Source: Candidatus Koribacter versatilis Ellin345 (GTDB lineage: Bacteria; Acidobacteriota; Terriglobia; Terriglobales; Acidobacteriaceae). From it: a stretch of DNA of 64,000 nt. Under the pieces are notes generated by a model. The model searched no databases and had not been told where the DNA came from. It worked only from the letters and a program-made list of their open reading frames with translations. Positions 1,695 through 28,872 of the stretch are shown piece by piece. The translations under genes and the position numbers were made by a program. Location: contig NC_008009.1 in the NCBI RefSeq assembly GCF_000014005.1, positions 4,030,001-4,094,000 on the forward strand, given 5' to 3'. The stretch's first letter is position 1. Every line of letters starts with the position of its first letter.

Positions 1695-3500
1695 ATGTCG
1701 TTTGAACAGCTGGTTCAGGAACTGATGGAAGCTTTGCTGAACGTCTTCGGGCGCGACGACAACGGCAACCGGCAGTACATGCTGGTGGAGACGTTCCCCG
1801 ACTACCTGATTGCGCGCGGCCCGGACGGCGACCTTTACCAGATCTCGTACACCGTGGGCGCCGATGACGACGCGATCACCTTCAGCGATCCGCAGGAAGT
1901 GGAGACGGCGTATGTGCCCGTTGCGGAAGCCGCGACCTTTCTCGCCGCGGTGGCAGGCGCGGATCCGAACTCGAATGTATTTCCGGTGGAAGTGATGCGC
2001 GCTGGCTTCGCCAACGGAACCGTGCAATATGGCGGCAAGCCGTTGCGCCAGTTCTTCCCGGAAGAAGTTGTCGCGCAGGTCGCACAGGCGGTGAATGGCG
2101 CGCGCTTCGGACGTCGGCACCCAGTGGGCAATGAGAACGAAGGCAACCAGCCCGAGCTCGTCGCCGGCTGGCTTGAGAACGGCCACCTGGACGGCAACGG
2201 GAAGGCCGCACTTGCAGAAGTTCACTTGCTCGAAAGCGAGAAGGACCTGCAGGCGAAGCTCGCGGCAGCACGATCGGCGAACAAGCTCGATCTCTTCGGC
2301 GTGAGCGTACTCGGCTACTTCGGATTCCAGCCGAAGAAGATCGACGGCGAAGACGTGCTCTACGCCACGCGCCTGGGCAAACTGGCGCGGGTTGACCTGG
2401 TGGCTGAGCCTGCGGCAGGCGGGCGATTTTTGAATGAACTTCGCGTGGCGGCTTCGGCCGATGTCCGCGCGGAGATCTCGCGCATGCAGCGCGATGCAGT
2501 GAAGAGTGTACAAAACGGCAGGGCGCGAGCCGCTGGCCGACAAAAAGGAGAAGCGATGAAGGATCGCATCTTGAAGTTACTGGCGGCGATGCGCAAGCAC
2601 AACGCGGCGAGCGCCGACCAGCTGACGGTGGAGTTCAATGGCCTGTCGGAAGACAAGCACCAGGACTTCCTGATGAAAGTAACCGAAGCGGCTCTGACGA
2701 TTGAGCCCGCTTCCGCAACCGCTGCCAACAGCGAAGTGATCGAGCTGGCGAAGACCGCACTGGCCGAAGCCAAGAAGATCCAGTCGGGCAACCTGGTGGA
2801 GCGCAAGCTGAAGGACGCGAAGCTGCCGAAGCCCGCCGAAGACCTGGTGCGCACACACCTGGCCGAGCGCGAGCTGACCGAGGCACAGGTGGACACCGAG
2901 ATCACGGCGACGCGCGCAGCTTTCGCGGCGTACTCCACGATCGGCCGGCCCACCGGCTCGGCGATTGTGCTTGGTGGTGCAGACAGCGTGGAGAAGGTGC
3001 AACTGGCGATGGACCGCCTGCTCCGCGTGAAGGAAGCGGAGAAGAGTGGTGTCGCTCCCTTCCGGGGCATCCGTGACGCCTACGTGACGATCACGGGCGA
3101 CCGTGAGCTGAAGTTCGCCGACGGCGGCTTCTATCGCGCGAGCGAAGCGATCGCCACCGGCGATTTCCCGAACATCCTGCTGAACTCGATGACGAAGAAG
3201 TTGGAACAGGACTATGCCGAAGTCGGCATGAGCGGCCTGGACCAGATCATCACCAAGGCGAACATCAACGACTTCAAATCGCAGGACCGCGTGCGGTTGG
3301 GCTACCTCGGTGATTTGCCGACGGTCGCGGAAGCCGGACCTTACACGGAACTGACCAAGCCCACGGACGAAAAGATCAGCTACTCGGTGCTGAAGAAGGG
3401 TGGAATCCTGACGATCTCCGAAGAGACGATCCGCAATGACGATCTCGGAAAGATCGCAGCATTCCCCACGCGCCTGGCGCGCGCCGGACGCACACTTTGA
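1695..3500 (+). CDS. Prohead protease-scaffold-major capsid polyprotein, N-terminal part (frame broken)
   Basis: The 601 residues read as three parts. Residues about 60-250 look like a Mu-type prohead protease, with candidate catalytic His142 in FGRRHPVG and Ser204 in LFGVSVLG, followed by LARVDLVAEP. Residues about 288-425 are helical and charged, like a scaffold. From about 430 the N-terminal half of a Mu-like major capsid protein begins, ending KGGILTISEETIRNDDLGK and then LARAGRTL-stop. The capsid fold is incomplete: its second half lies in the next gene, one frame back. The start ATG 1695 follows ggagagaacacacg. An in-frame ATG at 2556 has its own ribosome site and could make scaffold-capsid alone. 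Confidence 0.8.
   Translation: MSFEQLVQELMEALLNVFGRDDNGNRQYMLVETFPDYLIARGPDGDLYQISYTVGADDDAITFSDPQEVETAYVPVAEAATFLAAVAGADPNSNVFPVEVMRAGFANGTVQYGGKPLRQFFPEEVVAQVAQAVNGARFGRRHPVGNENEGNQPELVAGWLENGHLDGNGKAALAEVHLLESEKDLQAKLAAARSANKLDLFGVSVLGYFGFQPKKIDGEDVLYATRLGKLARVDLVAEPAAGGRFLNELRVAASADVRAEISRMQRDAVKSVQNGRARAAGRQKGEAMKDRILKLLAAMRKHNAASADQLTVEFNGLSEDKHQDFLMKVTEAALTIEPASATAANSEVIELAKTALAEAKKIQSGNLVERKLKDAKLPKPAEDLVRTHLAERELTEAQVDTEITATRAAFAAYSTIGRPTGSAIVLGGADSVEKVQLAMDRLLRVKEAEKSGVAPFRGIRDAYVTITGDRELKFADGGFYRASEAIATGDFPNILLNSMTKKLEQDYAEVGMSGLDQIITKANINDFKSQDRVRLGYLGDLPTVAEAGPYTELTKPTDEKISYSVLKKGGILTISEETIRNDDLGKIAAFPTRLARAGRTL
2545..2558 (+). promoter_or_regulatory. Internal ribosome-binding site and ATG for nested scaffold-capsid product
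   Basis: AAGGAG at 2545-2550 is followed after five bases by ATG 2556, in the same frame as the large polyprotein and at residue 288, just where the protease-like part ends and the helical scaffold-like part begins (MKDRILKLL). This is the layout of nested scaffold genes such as lambda C/Nu3. The motif is seen directly; its use is inferred. Confidence 0.5.
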
Positions 3501-4033
3501 AGGCCTACATCACGGCCTTCCTCACCGCAAATGGCAATTACGATCCGGACGGTGTGGCGTGGTTCCACGCGACGCATGGCAACCTCGGATCGGCGGCACT
3601 CAGCTCGGCTTCGCTCGATGCTGCGGAACTCGCGCTGATGACGCAAACCGAGAAGGACTCCAACAACCCTCTCGGCTTCCCGCTGGAGTGGTTGATGGTG
3701 CCGCCCGCGCTGAAGGCAACGGCGATGCAGATCAACCGCAACGACACGGGCACCAACAACTGGTACCAGCGGTTCGGTGCCAACAATGAGCGGATCTTCG
3801 TGAACGAGCTGTTGACGGACACGAACGATTGGTACGCCGGCTGCTTCCCGAGCTACGCGCCGGTGCTGGAGGTCGGGTTCCTCGATGGCATCGAGACGCC
3901 GCAGATCTTCCTCGCGAACCAGCCCACTGTCGGCGTCACGTTCTCCAACGACCAGATTCAATACAAGGTCAAGAGCGTGTTCGGTGGCAAACCGGTGGAC
4001 TTCCGCCCGATCTTCAAGGCGGTCGTCGCGTAG
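3497..4033 (+). CDS. Major capsid protein, C-terminal half (separate frame)
   Basis: This 178-residue frame opens at TTG 3497 and overlaps the stop of the preceding gene (TTGA). Its sequence, including VAWFHATHGNLG, LEWLMVPPAL, VEVGFLDG-like and YKVKSVFGGKPVDFRP, is the second half of a Mu-like major capsid protein. The first half is the end of the upstream frame. Joining the frames by one backward base gives GRTLLKAYITAFLT, which matches the expected helix in the family. Three explanations are open: a one-base deletion in the TTT run, a sequencing error, or a programmed -1 shift. There is no canonical slippery heptamer, and no ribosome site suited to independent start. Confidence 0.8.
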   Translation: MKAYITAFLTANGNYDPDGVAWFHATHGNLGSAALSSASLDAAELALMTQTEKDSNNPLGFPLEWLMVPPALKATAMQINRNDTGTNNWYQRFGANNERIFVNELLTDTNDWYAGCFPSYAPVLEVGFLDGIETPQIFLANQPTVGVTFSNDQIQYKVKSVFGGKPVDFRPIFKAVVA

Positions 4034-5769: not shown

Positions 5770-6224
5770 AGCTGAGCGACTTGCTGAAGACGATCGCCGC
5801 GAAGATCGAGAGCGTGCCGGACACCGGCAAGGTCTACCCGCGGTTGAAGATGATCCGCGACGAAGCTTCGTTCAAGGCCGCTTACCTGGACACGACAGTG
5901 AGCCCGCCGCGGATCCGCGCATGGGCGCTGACGCGCGAAAGCACCAGTTCGATCGAGAACAAAGTGCACAACGATAAGGACACGCACCTGATCGTGATGC
6001 GCGGCTACTTCGGGTTGGTGGATGCGAACGCAACGGACGAGGAGTTCCAGGACAAGATCGAGGACGTACGCGAAGCATTTCGCCATGACCGCAAGCTCGG
6101 CGGCGCCGTGTATTGGACTGGACCAGTACAGGTGCGCCAGGCGGTGACGGGTGTGATCTGCGGCGTGCTGGTGCATTACGTGGAAGCGACGCTCGGGGTG
6201 CAGATCTACCCGATCGTGTATTGA
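5766..6224 (+). CDS. Phage tail terminator-like protein
   Basis: A 152-residue protein starting at GTG 5766, overlapping the previous stop. It has an N-terminal helix (KLSDLLKTIAAKI), a central strand with YPRLKMIRDEASF, and a final segment LVHYVEATLGVQIYPIVY that resembles the beta-strand ending of tail terminator (lambda gpU-like) proteins. These cap the tail tube and join it to the head. Size and location directly after the gp10-like gene and before the tail tube fit this role. The sequence similarity I can see is weak, so the call depends mainly on order and length. Confidence 0.55.
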   Translation: MKLSDLLKTIAAKIESVPDTGKVYPRLKMIRDEASFKAAYLDTTVSPPRIRAWALTRESTSSIENKVHNDKDTHLIVMRGYFGLVDANATDEEFQDKIEDVREAFRHDRKLGGAVYWTGPVQVRQAVTGVICGVLVHYVEATLGVQIYPIVY

Positions 6225-6232
6225 GGTGAACG

Positions 6233-6475
6233 ATGAAGCGTGACGATTACGTGTACGTGCGGTTGACGGCGAAGGGTGAGGAACTGGCTGGCCCGCATGA
6301 GTTACGGCTGGCAGGTGGAAGCTACCACTTCGCGTTCAAGGCCGGCGAGGCGCAGAAGGTAACGCGCGCCTATGACTGGAACGTTGTGCTGAGTAAAGAG
6401 AAATACGACGGCGAGCCGTTATTCGAGGTGGTGGATGCGCCGACGGATGCTGTGCAGGACGAAAAACAGAAGTAG
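6233..6475 (+). CDS. Small phage protein of unknown function
   Basis: An 80-residue charged, beta-rich protein with no recognised motif (YVYVRLTAKGEELAGP, YHFAFKAGEAQKV). It starts 8 bases after the tail terminator with a short ribosome site (gaggtga before ATG 6233) and lies before the tail tube gene. Proteins of this size in this position occur in many siphophages without known function. Confidence 0.55.
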   Translation: MKRDDYVYVRLTAKGEELAGPHELRLAGGSYHFAFKAGEAQKVTRAYDWNVVLSKEKYDGEPLFEVVDAPTDAVQDEKQK

Positions 6476-6494
6476 AGACTGACGGAGGCAAGCG

Positions 6495-7499
6495 ATGCCC
6501 TACGAGGCACAACAACTTTTAGCAGTACGCGAGATGGTCCTCTCGGCCAACAAGCAAACGACGTATGGCACCGCGCTCGGCGATGGAGCGCTCCTTCACC
6601 GGCCGAGCTTCGACCCAGGCATGTTCGTGCAGATTACGAAGACACCGCGCACGAATGCGACGAAGGCCGGCAAAGGGCATCGCTTCCCAACAGAACGGCA
6701 GATCATCGAACTGGCGTCGGCATTCAGCGGCTCGATCGAGCTGACTGATTACCTCGCCGCATTCTTTCTCGGCTTGGTGATGGGCCATGTGGTGGATACG
6801 GGCGCAGGCCCTTACACCCACGCCTTCACCTTCGAGAACGCGACCGCGATCGCGCCGGTTACGACGGTGTACTTCGAAGACACCGCAGACGTGCACTACA
6901 AGCTGCCGGACGTGAGCGTGATCGATCTGACGATCAGCGGTGGCCCCACCGGCCCTCTGATGGCTCAGTTCTCGATGGCCGGCAGCGGGCGCTTGATAGC
7001 AGGCAGCATGGGAGCGTTGCCGGCGGCGGCGACGCCGACGTACCTGCTCGGTTCTGATACCGACATTCTTGTTGGCGCGACGGGTGCCGCGGCCTCGATC
7101 AAAGAGCGCGTGAAGAGCTGGTCGATCAAGATCGCGAGCGGCATTGTGATCCATCGTGCGCCTGGCGGACAGATGTACGCCACCTTCAACAAGTTCACGG
7201 GCACACCGAGCGCGACGCTGGACCTAGTGGTGGGCGCGACGGCGGCGGACGATGTGTTCAACATCTTTTTGGCGGACACGCTCCGTGAAGTGCAGATCAA
7301 CACGAATAGCGGCGCATCGGCACAGCTGAACATGAAGTTCCCGAACGCCGCGTACACAGCCGCTCAGCTTTCGAGCAACAACGACGAAGGCGATTGGCAC
7401 ATTACGAGCGACGAGCAGGCGGTGCTGAAAGTTGGCGCAGCCGAACCGTTCCAGGCGACGGTGATCAACGCGACGCAGCACTATCTGGTCGCTGCCTAA
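6495..7499 (+). CDS. Major tail tube protein
   Basis: A 334-residue protein, mostly beta strand with many Gly, Thr and Ala and no cysteine. Segments such as QTTYGTALGDGALLH at the N-terminus, GPYTHAFTFENA near residue 110, SVIDLTISGGPTGPLMAQFS and YATFNKFTGTPSATLDL fit the siphovirus tail-tube fold, whose copies stack into the hollow tail. The N-terminal opening, with an early GT-rich turn followed by FDPGMFVQITKTPRT, is typical of this family. It lies between the tail terminator and the chaperone-like genes. The start ATG 6495 follows acggaggcaagcg. The gene is followed by an unusually long non-coding leader for a late operon. Confidence 0.75.
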   Translation: MPYEAQQLLAVREMVLSANKQTTYGTALGDGALLHRPSFDPGMFVQITKTPRTNATKAGKGHRFPTERQIIELASAFSGSIELTDYLAAFFLGLVMGHVVDTGAGPYTHAFTFENATAIAPVTTVYFEDTADVHYKLPDVSVIDLTISGGPTGPLMAQFSMAGSGRLIAGSMGALPAAATPTYLLGSDTDILVGATGAAASIKERVKSWSIKIASGIVIHRAPGGQMYATFNKFTGTPSATLDLVVGATAADDVFNIFLADTLREVQINTNSGASAQLNMKFPNAAYTAAQLSSNNDEGDWHITSDEQAVLKVGAAEPFQATVINATQHYLVAA

Positions 7500-7506
7500 G
7501 AAGTCA

Positions 7507-7581
7507 GGCGGTCCCGTTCTCAAAGAGGCCGGCAACCCCTGGCGCGATGAGAATCTCGGGGGAGATACAAGCGGGACCGCC
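7507..7581 (+). ncRNA. Candidate structured RNA leader (three-way junction, possible pseudoknot)
   Basis: A perfect 10-bp stem pairs GGCGGTCCCG (7507-7516) with CGGGACCGCC (7572-7581). Directly inside, TTCTCA (7517-7522) pairs with TGAGAA (7548-7553), and TCTC (7554-7557) pairs with GAGA (7562-7565) around a GGGG loop. CCCC at 7536-7539, in the loop of the second stem, is complementary to that GGGG loop, so a pseudoknot is possible. The pairings were found by eye; no energy or covariation test was possible. It is not a family I recognise, and it sits in an untranslated leader before the chaperone-like gene. Confidence 0.4.
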
Positions 7582-7610
7582 GAGACGTAAAGATGTGGGA
7601 TCTGTTTCAC

Positions 7611-7680
7611 CGGGGCAACCTTCGCTCCGTTTTCGGCGCACGCTTCGCGCTTTAGTCGGCTCACCCTTCGAGCCTCTTTT
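7611..7680 (+). terminator. Three short hairpins ending in a terminator-like stem with T-tract
   Basis: CGGGGC/GCTCCG (7611-7616, 7624-7629), GCGC/GCGC (7636-7639, 7647-7650) and GGCTC/GAGCC (7658-7662, 7670-7674) form successive hairpins. All have seven-base loops ending in CTTC. The last is followed by TCTTTT (7675-7680), like an intrinsic terminator or attenuator, 41 bases before the next start codon. The stems are short, so function is uncertain. Confidence 0.35.
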
Positions 7681-7721
7681 GGAAGAGCGGTTCGGCAGTG
7701 CAATCCAAACAGGAGAAGCCA

Positions 7722-8474
7722 ATGAGCGCAGAGGTGCAGAAGGTAGACATCGAACTCACCGGCAATCGGCTGGTGAGCTTTAAAGACAAAGGACGCGCAT
7801 TCACGTTGGAATTCCGTCGTCTTACGAACGGCGACTGGATGAAGTACTTCGGCGGTATCTCGACGGAGAGCGAGCGCGATGCGAAGGAACGCATCGATCG
7901 ATTCGACGTGCGCACTCCGGGCGCGGCGCTGGTGAACGAGGCGCTGATAGGAGCAAAGGGATACAAAACCCGGAGCGGCGAAGACCTGACCACGGTGGCG
8001 AACTGGCAGCGCGCGATTCCTTACGGCCATCGAGCGATTGCTGCAGAAGCGCTGATTGATGTTGCGCCATCGCAGAGTGCAGCGGAGATCGCATTTGACC
8101 CGGAAGTGCAAGAGGTCTACCTCGACGCGCGCTGGGGCAGCGTGGAGCCCGGAACGATGCAGCTATACACCGGGCTGCTGCACCGATTTGGCATGGTGAC
8201 GGTAGAACACGAGCGCCGCTATAACCGCGCCATGAGCGAGGCGCGCGTGGTGGGCGGAAGCCGTACCGGCCGCACTATCTATCCCGGCCGGCACAAACTC
8301 TTCGCCGAACTCTATGACGACCTGGTCGTTGGCGTGGCCGGCTACACCGTGAATGGCACTGCTCTGGTGGAGAACAAGGCACTCATCCGCGAGGAGATGG
8401 ATACGTTTCACAAAGTGTCCGCGGTAGCGTGCCTGTTCGAGAAGCCGGAGCGCGAGGAGGCGTCGGCCGCGTGA
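7722..8474 (+). CDS. Phage tail assembly chaperone-like protein
   Basis: A 250-residue protein of mixed helix and strand, not closely recognised. The gene lies between tail tube and tape measure, where tail assembly chaperones (lambda gpG equivalents) are found. The start ATG 7722 is chosen because AGGAG (7711-7715) sits six bases before it; a GTG at 7698 in the same frame lacks a ribosome site. The next frame begins at the stop (GTGATG), but I see no slippery heptamer in the overlap, so the usual programmed frameshift of gpG/gpGT systems is not supported here. The function is inferred from order only. Confidence 0.5.
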   Translation: MSAEVQKVDIELTGNRLVSFKDKGRAFTLEFRRLTNGDWMKYFGGISTESERDAKERIDRFDVRTPGAALVNEALIGAKGYKTRSGEDLTTVANWQRAIPYGHRAIAAEALIDVAPSQSAAEIAFDPEVQEVYLDARWGSVEPGTMQLYTGLLHRFGMVTVEHERRYNRAMSEARVVGGSRTGRTIYPGRHKLFAELYDDLVVGVAGYTVNGTALVENKALIREEMDTFHKVSAVACLFEKPEREEASAA

Positions 8475-15633: not shown

Positions 15634-15930
15634 CTATGCGGCGGCTTTGCGCGGCTTGATCTTCGATACGTCCGCCTTCTTGGCAGCAGTTCGGATGTCG
15701 TAGTCGACCTGAACGTTCATCCAGAACCGCGCCGGCATCCCGAAGTACTTTTCCAGGCGCAGCGCAGTATCCGCCGTCATCGCACGATGCTCCCGCACAA
15801 GGTCGTTAATCCGAGGCAGAGGCACGTGCAGTTCTTTAGCGAGGCGGTAGGAGGTGAGACCTAGAGGTCGCATGAACTCCTCACGGAGCAGTTCGCCCGG
15901 ATGAATCGCCCACGGTTTCTTCCCCGCCAT
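15634..15930 (-). CDS. higA: HigA-family antitoxin (XRE helix-turn-helix)
   Basis: A 98-residue protein with the HigA layout. The opening IHPGELLREEFMRPLGLT matches the family start, and the helix-turn-helix follows (SYRLAKELHVPLPRINDLVREHRAMT). The central LEKYFGMPARFWMNVQVDYD is the conserved HigA dimerisation region. The product neutralises HigB and represses the operon by binding its operator. It lies 9 bases downstream of higB on the same strand, in the toxin-first order typical of hig systems. The lysine-rich C-terminal tail is plain. Identification is confident; physiological activity is inferred. Confidence 0.9.
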   Translation of the reverse strand: MAGKKPWAIHPGELLREEFMRPLGLTSYRLAKELHVPLPRINDLVREHRAMTADTALRLEKYFGMPARFWMNVQVDYDIRTAAKKADVSKIKPRKAAA

Positions 15931-15939
15931 AGCGCTCTC

Positions 15940-16221
15940 CTAGTGATAGTCAACGATCTCAACTTCGTAAGCGTTTCCGTCTCGCCAAATGAAACACACT
16001 CGAAATTGATCATTGATCCGAATACTGTGTTGCCCGGTCCGATCGCCCTTCATTGGTTCAAGACGATTCCCCGGCGGAATCTCGAGATGATCCAACTCGT
16101 CAACGTTATTCAGTGTGACCAACTTACGCATCGCGGCTTTCCGAAGCGTTGCTGGAATACGTCTGCTTTTCCCCGTTTCGTAGAGGAGTCTTGCATCGGG
16201 GTCCTTGAAGCTGACGATCAC
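15940..16221 (-). CDS. higB: HigB-family mRNA interferase toxin (RelE superfamily)
   Basis: A 93-residue protein of the RelE/ParE fold, expected to cleave mRNA on the ribosome. Landmarks are VIVSFKDPDARLLYE at the start, RKLVTLNNVDELDHLEIPPG in the middle and IRINDQFRVCFIWRDG near the end, where Arg and His/Trp residues of HigB toxins lie. GTG 16221 is chosen because it gives the family's usual length. An upstream TTG at 16257 would add 12 residues lying over the operator palindrome. No strong ribosome site is visible before the GTG. The antitoxin follows 9 bases downstream. Confidence 0.87.
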   Translation of the reverse strand: MIVSFKDPDARLLYETGKSRRIPATLRKAAMRKLVTLNNVDELDHLEIPPGNRLEPMKGDRTGQHSIRINDQFRVCFIWRDGNAYEVEIVDYH

Positions 16222-16229
16222 TCGGCAAA

Positions 16230-16250
16230 TAGTAACGCGATGCGTTACTA
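16230..16250. promoter_or_regulatory. Palindromic operator for higBA
   Basis: A perfect inverted repeat has nine-base arms TAGTAACGC (16230-16238) and GCGTTACTA (16242-16250) around GAT. It lies 8 bases upstream of the higB start and about 43 bases before the divergent methyltransferase gene. HigA-family antitoxins repress by binding such palindromes, so this is the likely operator. It could also affect the neighbouring gene. Confidence 0.65.
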
Positions 16251-16293
16251 CCGTCAATCGCCGAATGATACCCCTCTTTGCTATCCTTCCTAG

Positions 16294-27117: not shown

Positions 27118-28872
27118 ATGAAGGCTTCCCAACAACATCCCTCCATAGACGCGTTTCTGCTGGAGGTGGCCGATGTCGTCAACACGACACTGGACCTCGA
27201 CACGCTGCTTACGCGCGTGGCCGGATTGGTGCGCAAGATCATCAACTACGACATCTTTGCCATCCTGCTGGTGAACGAAAAGGCGCAAGAACTGCGGATC
27301 CGCTTCCAGGTCGGGCATCCGGCGGAGGCGATCGAGCGCACCCGGATCAAGATTGGCCAGGGTATTACCGGAGCTGCGGCACAGACCCGCGAGCCGGTGC
27401 TGGTGAATGACGTCTCCAAGCACCCGGAATACATTACCTCGGTCTCCGATGTACGCTCCGAACTGGCGATCCCGATGATCGTGAAGAACAAGGTCATCGG
27501 CGTAATCGACATCGAGGCGCCGCAGAAGAACTATTTCACCGAAGAGCACAGCCGGTTGCTGACGGTGATCGCCTCACGCGTGGCGATTGGCATCGAAAAC
27601 GCGCGGCTTTACACGCGGGTTTCGAACCAGGCGAAGTCGCTGCTGCTGCTCAACGAGATCAGCCGCGAACTGACGTCGATTCTCAACCTCGATCAGTTGT
27701 TGAAGCGGGTTGGCGAGCTTCTTACGCGCGTGATTGATTACCAGATGTTCTCCATCCTGCTGCTCGACCCGATGGGCGAGAAACTGCAACATCGCTTCTC
27801 ACTGCGCTTCCAGGAGAACATCCACCTCAAGCACGATATCCCGCTGGGCCGCGGACTGGTGGGTTATGCCGTCGGGAAGAACGAAGCTGTGCTCGTCCCC
27901 GACGTCCGCAAAGATTCGCGTTACATCATGCTGAATCCGGAGACGCGCTCTGAGCTGGCGGTACCGCTGGTTTACAAGGGCAAAGTCATCGGAGTCCTCG
28001 ACCTTGAGCACACCAAGCGCGGCTTCTTCACAGAAGATCACAAGCGCACGCTAACCACGCTTGCCGCGCAGATCGCCATCGCGATTGAAAACGCCCGGCT
28101 CTACGAGCAGATCGTGAAACAGGAGCGGCGGCTCGAGCAGGACATGGCGCTCGCCCGCGAGTTGCAGCATCACTTGCTTCCGGCGTCGCTACCGAAGATG
28201 ACTCACGCTGAGGTCGCCGCCAAGTTCTCTCCCGCCCGCGCCATCGGCGGCGATCTCTACGATTTTCTCCGGTACTCCGGCGGTTATCTGCACGGCATCG
28301 CGGTGGGCGACGTCAGCGGAAAAGGAGCACCCGCGGCCATTTATGCCGCGCTGGCCAGCGGCATCCTGCGCTCACATTCGCAGGAAGAGCCGGGCGCCGC
28401 GGAGATGCTGAGCATCGTCAATTTATCGCTTTCCGATCGTCCCATTGATGCGCAGTACATCTCGCTGATCTATGCCATTTGGGATGACTCGGCTCGGACT
28501 TTGCGACTCGCGAACTCGGGACTACCGCGCCCCATGCACTGCCGCAAGGGCAAGGTCACGCGCATTGATGCGACCGGTCTGCCACTCGGGCTCTTCGCCA
28601 GCGCCGAGTATGAAGAGACTGCGATTCGCGCCGAAGCCGGCGACGTCTTCGTCTTCTTCTCCGACGGTATTCTCGACGCGCGCAACCGTGCAGGCGAACT
28701 CTTCGGCAGTGGCCGCGTCGAAGGCCTGGTATGCGAGTTTGCCGGCGAACCGGCCCAGAAGATTGTCGATTCGATCTACAACGCCGTGTGCGATCATGCC
28801 GTCGGCGTGGAAACCTTCGACGACCAAACCATTGTCGCGCTGAAAGTAAAAGCAGGAAGGGCGCGCAAGTGA
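27118..28872 (+). CDS. GAF-GAF-SpoIIE/PP2C serine phosphatase (RsbU-like)
   Basis: A 584-residue signalling protein with no membrane segment. Two GAF domains (about residues 15-170 and 185-345) share the repeats LLTRVAGLVRKIINYDIF and LLKRVGELLTRVIDYQMF, and each ends with a similar AIPMIVKNKVIGVIDIE-like stretch. A helix with QHHLLPASLPKM leads into the PP2C domain, whose metal residues appear in GGDLYDF, VGDVSGKGAPAAI and FSDGILDARN. It likely dephosphorylates an anti-sigma antagonist in response to a ligand. ATG 27118 is one of several possible starts. lysA overlaps its stop by GTGA. Confidence 0.85.
   Translation: MKASQQHPSIDAFLLEVADVVNTTLDLDTLLTRVAGLVRKIINYDIFAILLVNEKAQELRIRFQVGHPAEAIERTRIKIGQGITGAAAQTREPVLVNDVSKHPEYITSVSDVRSELAIPMIVKNKVIGVIDIEAPQKNYFTEEHSRLLTVIASRVAIGIENARLYTRVSNQAKSLLLLNEISRELTSILNLDQLLKRVGELLTRVIDYQMFSILLLDPMGEKLQHRFSLRFQENIHLKHDIPLGRGLVGYAVGKNEAVLVPDVRKDSRYIMLNPETRSELAVPLVYKGKVIGVLDLEHTKRGFFTEDHKRTLTTLAAQIAIAIENARLYEQIVKQERRLEQDMALARELQHHLLPASLPKMTHAEVAAKFSPARAIGGDLYDFLRYSGGYLHGIAVGDVSGKGAPAAIYAALASGILRSHSQEEPGAAEMLSIVNLSLSDRPIDAQYISLIYAIWDDSARTLRLANSGLPRPMHCRKGKVTRIDATGLPLGLFASAEYEETAIRAEAGDVFVFFSDGILDARNRAGELFGSGRVEGLVCEFAGEPAQKIVDSIYNAVCDHAVGVETFDDQTIVALKVKAGRARK

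Follow-up and report, generated by a model that had tools for sequence, protein, structure and literature searches.

A structured RNA that is probably cis-regulatory, to judge from its sequence in related phages, occupies the slot between the tail tube gene and the probable tail assembly chaperone gene in late operons of acidobacterial tailed phages. The equivalent gap of the window (the whole stretch of 64,000 nucleotides of Candidatus Koribacter versatilis Ellin345 analysed here) is probably a diverged relative of this RNA family, with which it shares slot, order and loop type (CUUC). A regulatory RNA had been proposed for this gap in the original prediction, and a conserved, covarying RNA does stand before the same gene in the relatives, whereas the copy of the window is too diverged to be counted as a member. 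The family is new in the sense that it has neither a match to Rfam 15 in the scanned loci nor a report among the titles and abstract openings found by searches of open-access PMC.

Organization of the gap and its gene neighbourhood

The late operon of the window is situated on the + strand, its head genes preceding those of the tail. The gap corresponds exactly to the interval between the tube gene and the ATG of the next gene (Table 1), both of which are homologous to those of the relatives. The original description of 222 non-coding bases in a close-packed operon is borne out: this gap is the longest of the operon in the ORF list, the remaining junctions being overlaps or spacers of at most about 126 nt (the list is mechanical, with unrefined starts). 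The whole gap occurs once in its genome, with remaining matches of only 15-22 nt, on which ground repeat or mobile DNA was rejected as its identity.

Table 1. Features of the tube-chaperone gap and its flanking genes in the window
Feature	Position	Strand	Evidence
Tail tube gene (Phage_tube_2)	6495-7499	+	Pfam PF18906, E 6.5e-10
Non-coding gap, slot of the RNA element	7500-7721	+	sequence, ORF list; equivalent slot in relatives
Three-way junction in the place of P1, outer stem 7507-7516/7572-7581, without U-run	7503-7586	+	sequence, folding
Hairpin CGGGGC[AACCUUC]GCUCCG, place of P2	7611-7629	+	hairpin search, model alignment, folding
Hairpin GGCGC[ACGCUUC]GCGCU, place of P3	7635-7651	+	hairpin search, model alignment, folding
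Hairpin GGCUC[ACCCUUC]GAGCC, then UCUUUU (terminator-like), place of P4	7658-7674	+	terminator scan, hairpin search, model alignment
Full-length weak match to covariance model R2, 3' end on the start codon	7600-7724	+	11.5 bits, E 0.023
Shine-Dalgarno sequence AGGAG of the downstream gene	7711-7715	+	sequence
Probable tail assembly chaperone gene	7722-8474	+	position (second gene before the 883-aa frame in tape-measure position); weak fold matches

Concerning the downstream gene, its product has no match in Pfam or PHROG. An AlphaFold model (pLDDT 89.9) found nothing better than E 0.16 in a fold search of the PDB, and its matches among viral folds are weak and partial: the best (E 0.014) is an uncharacterised protein, another (E 0.044) is a tail assembly chaperone of a Bacillus phage, and several weak matches to phage proteins likewise bear the name tail assembly chaperone. 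A tail assembly chaperone is thus the probable identity of the gene, mainly on account of its position. A gap at this junction is not peculiar to the phages studied here, since the coordinates given in PMC4493119 leave 114 nt between MTP and gpG of TP901-1.

Elsewhere in the window, two overlapping frames (1695-3500 and 3497-4033, + strand) match consecutive parts of phrog_29592 (137-703 and 710-891) and also Phage_capsid_4. The protease-capsid gene 1695-4033 is split in the sequence, which may reflect a mutational or programmed shift of the frame or else an error of assembly. Past the tail module, two small adjacent frames (15634-15930 and 15940-16257, - strand) resemble by eye a HigA/HigB-like antitoxin-toxin pair.

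The gap in related phages

Homologues of the chaperone or the tube were found in 5 of 61 and in 5 of 396 genomes (weakest homologue in the latter search: E 9.8e-4), and a tube profile detected 18 of 398, the genome of the window itself included. IMG/VR yielded 2, then 51 and then 79 loci (these among the best 80 of 89 matches), and the GTDB contigs six, named Acidobacteriaceae, Terracidiphilus and Acidobacteriales. The window's own chaperone as query had no match in IMG/VR or the GTDB contigs, nor had its tube in the phage collection. A second IMG/VR pattern was discarded, six of its seven matches being without the RNA element. In the 24-row alignment, the downstream protein closest to that of the window belongs to locus L015 (50-51%).

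A tube-to-chaperone gap could be delimited in 151 of the 173 examined loci, many of which overlap, and 72 of these gaps are distinct. Their median length is 182.5 nt and 61 of the 72 fall within 120-320 nt; individual gap ends may be off, as start codons were set by rule (homology and Shine-Dalgarno sequence, SD). Reclustering of the 72 gave 58 representatives. Alignment A5 comprises 35 sequences, 11 of 46 references having been removed by hand as diverged or insertion-bearing (L011, L039, L061, L070, L072, L080, L153, L163, L164, L165 and L170). Alignment A7 consists of 59 loci picked for their fit to model R1 and includes 8 of these 11; together with the test of P4:SD pairing on the 58 representatives (see below), it partly repairs the selection made for A5. 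In genome G031, the assembly breaks around the tube-chaperone gap, and the ends of contigs C67 and C84 (loci L030 and L010) share gap sequence.

The gap does not behave as a gene. A coding gene in the slot was rejected because, of 46 gaps, at most 30 are free of stops in any one frame over the last 129 nt, and the gap lengths spread over all three remainders. The original prediction had set a homologous coding gene in related phages against its own reading; at the level of the family, no single frame spans the slot. Closed frames of at least 40 aa occur in 17 of the 58 gaps (a count not set against shuffles), and these 17 include all eight gaps of more than 330 nt (L168, L091, L141, L161, L138, L069, L021 and L015; frames of 60-316 aa), into which genes have probably been inserted. 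Where checked, the inserted frames adjoin the RNA element and do not replace it. In L015, a frame within the gap and upstream of the element (6012-7127) resembles a DNA adenine methylase by eye. A tRNA-Met(CAT) is situated inside the gap, between P1 and P2, in L049 (4782-4859) and L047 (4777-4854); the 64-kb window contains no tRNA gene.

Searches for known RNAs gave no candidate either. At the gathering threshold, Rfam 15 has no match in the 64-kb window, and with E<=10 the region 7400-7800 retrieves only the lncRNA family ZFAT-AS1_1 (11.1 bits). Among 16 related loci, the single match with E<=1 lies off the slot and reaches 21 bits against a threshold of 58.7, with none at the slot itself. 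The Rfam scan suggested earlier, which was to include Acido-1 and Acido-Lenti-1, detected neither of these two families in the window or the 16 loci. By title or opening of the abstract, no paper on an RNA at the tube-chaperone junction was found in open-access PMC, a collection that leaves most subscription journals outside.

Structure and covariation of the family RNA

In the family, the tube stop codon is followed by hairpins P1, P2, P3 and P4, an A-rich linker and the SD. P1 has the form of a terminator hairpin with a U-run in 35 of the 58 representatives (a hairpin with 5 or more T among the 10 nt that follow it); 20 shuffled sets contain 2.15 on average and never more than 5. That any hairpin follows the tube stop (56 of 58 versus a shuffled mean of 43) is weak evidence. 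P2 and P3 possess pyrimidine-ended loops (in P2, e.g., ACCCCUUC or ACGACUCC), mostly of 8 nt, in which the ending CUNC recurs while the stems vary freely; P4 reads AGGGU-CCUUC-ACCCU, with variants. Loops ending in CUNC account for 59 of 196 in the gaps versus 67 of 3786 outside, and by the rule used at least one is present in 40 of the 58 gaps, at least two in 17 and none in 18.

The covariation proposed earlier as a check is strong for P2 to P4 in the relatives. In A5, 94.2% of the cells of the three stems are paired, 18 of the 23 pairs exhibit double changes, and the covariation score amounts to 0.468 versus 0.164 in shuffled alignments (0/500), slid versions of the structure reaching 36-44% pairing; these figures are flattered by the prior removal of the 11 references. 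In A7, all 22 of 22 pairs have double changes, a result that leans to the model since its loci were chosen by fit to R1 and aligned to the model. RNAalifold, unaided, predicted P2 and P4 and missed P3.

Concerning specificity, R1 gives one strong match in 82 of 87 loci, located by position at the tube-chaperone junction, and at most 13.5 bits elsewhere in 839 kb. The loci without match are L142, L148, L164, L172 and L174; in three of them (L142, L148 and L172), no chaperone is seen downstream of the tube. Six of 399 genomes of the class have a match with E<=0.1, four of them in the tube slot and two (G130 and G177) elsewhere. In the latter, the element (L186 1114-1240, + strand; L187 1501-1631, - strand) follows a phage-type gene of 290-300 aa and comprises P2 to P4 as well as, by eye, P4:SD complementarity; in G130, the frame that begins at the start codon on which the match ends has 10 codons only. 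No relative of the gene neighbouring L186 was found in IMG/VR. In G310, one element precedes the chaperone and a second, on another contig (L215 598-750, - strand), an unrelated 104-aa frame, the two copies differing on both sides of P2 in a compensatory manner. Three further copies thus occur at other places in related genomes, and among the sampled acidobacterial genomes the element is modular. A sample of 327 genomes of the phylum, overlapping the 399, likewise gave six genomes with a match, namely G130, G177, G310 and three in other families, whose matches of 21-25 bits are probably due to chance.

Predicted alternative pairing of P4 with the Shine-Dalgarno sequence

P4 contains, in its 5' arm and loop, a complement of the SD and of the bases that follow it, the fit being particular to each phage: GGAGUCCUUC pairs with GAAGGACUCU in L087 (with one G-U), AGGAUCCUC with GAGGAUCCU in L143, and GUUCCUUC with GAAGGAAC in L034. 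The cognate P4:SD duplex amounts to -14.35 kcal/mol versus -11.23 kcal/mol for swapped partners (0 of 20,000 permutations; n=47 of 58, kinship ignored). When the test is restricted to nine gaps of less than 62% identity, the counts are 0 of 20,000 (energy) and 20 of 20,000 (run length of the pairing), and five control segments (1878, 4533, 4007, 363 and 2996 of 5000) are not significant at 5%. The alignment columns agree more weakly, as the SD hardly varies: 90.1% of cells are paired versus 87.0% when shuffled (0/500), with 12 versus 4.1 double-change cells (0/500), 5 versus 3.0 double-change pairs (31/500) and 11 versus 9.2 pair types (64/500). In a broader scan, in which the best 12-mer partner of the SD was sought over the entire gap, all 40 shuffles are exceeded in only 24 of 48 cases.

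When each pairing is enforced, the SD-paired state is predicted to be the lower one in 38 of 47 gaps (median 3.2 kcal/mol), the two states lying within 3 kcal/mol in 19 of 47. By the search rule, 11 of the 58 representatives, the window included, are without P4. The rule also misses cases: L163, with an 8-nt SD complement, and L141, with 95.8 bits for R1, were counted as lacking P4, and L065, L168 and L170 were probably wrongly counted as having it.

The gap of the window

The 5' part of the gap folds into the three-way junction of the original prediction, which is both the minimum-energy and the centroid structure of 7503-7586 in RNAfold. Its 10-bp outer stem is present; the two inner stems are predicted as well, with about 5 bp each instead of the 6 and 4 bp given before. 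The junction amounts to -44.1 kcal/mol (z -4.63; 0/200 shuffles as stable), a value flattered by the choice of the stretch for its folding, and in the predicted structure its CCC loop could contact a GGGG loop. A perfect 10-bp stem occurs in 9 of 300 gap shuffles and is thus not very rare, and the 222-nt gap as a whole is not unusually stable (7490-7730: z -0.68, 52/200 shuffles). No homologue of the junction was found among the relatives. The earlier focus on it as the key part was misplaced, the P1 terminator standing there in 35 of 58 gaps and the conserved part lying downstream. The bases 7509-7526 (CGGTCCCGTtCTCAAAGA) agree at 17 of 18 positions with the gap of L025 (genome G016), where they form a 3' arm, as opposed to a 5' arm in the window; homology of the junction to L025 through this stretch was rejected because the structural contexts differ.

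Downstream of the junction, the original prediction had overlooked three hairpins within 7611-7674, spaced at 23 nt, with 7-nt loops ending in CUUC (AACCUUC, ACGCUUC and ACCCUUC at 7617, 7640 and 7663). Under the rule applied (7-nt loop ending in CUUC, stem of at least 5 bp, at least 4 G-C), they have no further counterpart on either strand of the 64 kb and constitute all hairpins with a 7-nt loop in the gap, the + strand of the 64 kb containing 127 hairpins with any 7-nt loop. None of 2000 shuffles of the gap contained three of them. In 3.43 Mb, both strands (redundant loci included, gaps masked where known), there are 37, and triplets occur solely in copies of the locus of the window itself. 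These statistics are post hoc, the rule having been set after the relatives were seen. The block 7606-7676 with the three hairpins is mildly stable (z -2.0, 9/200 shuffles), and 7587-7721 is not unusually so (z +0.54, 140/200). Terminator-like consensus sites number three in the scanned 601 bp, two of them within the gap on the + strand (7611-7624 and 7658-7674), versus 0.5 expected; both of the latter combine a GC hairpin with a direct U-run, which the junction does not possess.

With filters off, the best place for R2 in 1980 bases is the match listed in Table 1, which is collinear and ends on the ATG; comparable scores arise by chance elsewhere, with 11.2 bits for R2 at 27790-27935 of the window and up to 13.5 for R1 off target. 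With default filters, neither R1 nor R2 matches the slot, nor does the whole-genome search. L011, also diverged, has 15.3 bits with R2 (E 0.17), ending on its ATG, and no match to R2 was obtained in L012, L013, L014, L164 and L174. L015 carries the element before the gene at 30.2 bits. The gap of the window lies between the tube stop and a homologous downstream gene and contains tandem hairpins with CUNC loops; its best SD partner is reached by 8 of 40 shuffles, and the junction is followed by GAGACGUAAA. On account of the weak score and the absence of both P4:SD pairing and a U-run at P1, we do not file it as a member of the family. It may still damp read-through by its third hairpin and the U-run there.

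Possible function

Tailed phages require many tube subunits and little chaperone and tape measure, all from one operon, and control of the tube/chaperone ratio has mostly been discussed as a frameshift inside the chaperone genes. We regard it as an evenly balanced proposition that the RNA in the slot limits or times translation of the downstream tail gene by sequestration of the SD, the window keeping the slot and the loop type. The element would then act in cis and uncouple the abundant tube from the scarce chaperone. We infer termination at P1, an effect on translation and perhaps a trigger: the P1 hairpin right after the tube gene would stop part of the transcripts, and P2, P3 and P4 would form a second layer before the chaperone gene, in which the P4 hairpin and P4:SD pairing are mutually exclusive. 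Low translation would be the default, since in most gaps the SD-paired state has the lower predicted energy. P4, being local and upstream, would be expected to fold earlier as the RNA is transcribed, so that the SD stays accessible for some time; alternatively, the SD would stay open until a factor holding P2, P3 and P4 lets go. If this is true, an RNA offering both termination and SD sequestration at this very junction would be a direct answer to ratio control in a group of soil phages, and the element is a candidate new RNA family for Rfam. An extended version, a modular bistable regulator with a terminator, two sensor hairpins and a P4/SD switch, rewired in the window so that the three CUUC hairpins and the three-way junction take over its task, and with a tail protein as regulator through which tail assembly would feed back on its own operon, appears unlikely to us.

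Several features of the window would also suit a mere 3' end structure that protects or ends the tube mRNA and exerts no translational control downstream: the terminator hairpin after the tube stop in relatives (35 of 58 versus 2.15), the stability of the junction (z -4.63), the two terminator-like sites in the gap (at 7611 and 7658) and the lack of SD pairing. We consider this a minor possibility, as it leaves unexplained the covarying P2 to P4 and the phage-specific P4:SD match in relatives as well as the CUUC loops of the window at their 23-nt spacing. These loops, of which the window has three, could on the other hand mark P2 and P3 as tandem sites bound by a protein of phage or host origin, perhaps by the tube protein or the chaperone in an autoregulatory manner, the binding of which selects between P4 and SD pairing. 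The recurrence of CUNC ends on freely changing stems and the copies at other places, which fit a shared regulator, speak for such sites; however, loops could make RNA-RNA contacts instead and 18 of 58 gaps lack a CUNC loop by rule, so that we deem this reading rather improbable. It is very improbable that the gap is drifting, functionless sequence of a decaying prophage: the split capsid-type gene (1695-3500, 3497-4033) and the weak model score point that way, whereas the junction (0/200 shuffles at z -4.63), the three hairpins of the same type (0/2000 shuffles) and the conservation of the slot in relatives argue against it.

SD sequestration of the kind considered here has parallels in known systems. 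Translational riboswitches and SD-sequestering leaders offer two mutually exclusive pairings, one of them hiding the SD, and the same is predicted for the relatives; in contrast to riboswitches, no ligand-binding core is recognised here, P2 and P3 are simple hairpins, and no Rfam 15 match exists in the window or at the slot of 16 relatives. ANTAR sites consist of two tandem hairpins before a gene, with hexaloops having A1 and G4. Both are tandem hairpins conserved in their loops, whereas those of the present family, compared by eye in length and letters, mostly have 8 nt and often end in CUNC.

The final fold of the MS2 maturation-gene leader masks the SD with an upstream complement. A transient structure permits translation before this fold is attained, as stated in PMC6733600 with reference to van Meerten 2001. 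The likeness would lie in kinetic control of access to the SD; MS2 is, however, an RNA phage with a cloverleaf leader, whereas the present element belongs to a DNA phage operon and has a terminator, two extra conserved hairpins and copies elsewhere. Acido-1 (RF01686) and Acido-Lenti-1 (RF01687) are likewise structured RNAs of Acidobacteria, without match in the window or the 16 loci, and are marked 'n' for cis-regulatory in a table of PMC2864571. According to PMC6733600, translation of the aapA and hok mRNAs is governed by metastable hairpins together with anti-SD pairing over long range; these mRNAs have anti-SD folding in common with the element described here but belong to toxin-antitoxin systems with 3' processing and an antisense RNA.
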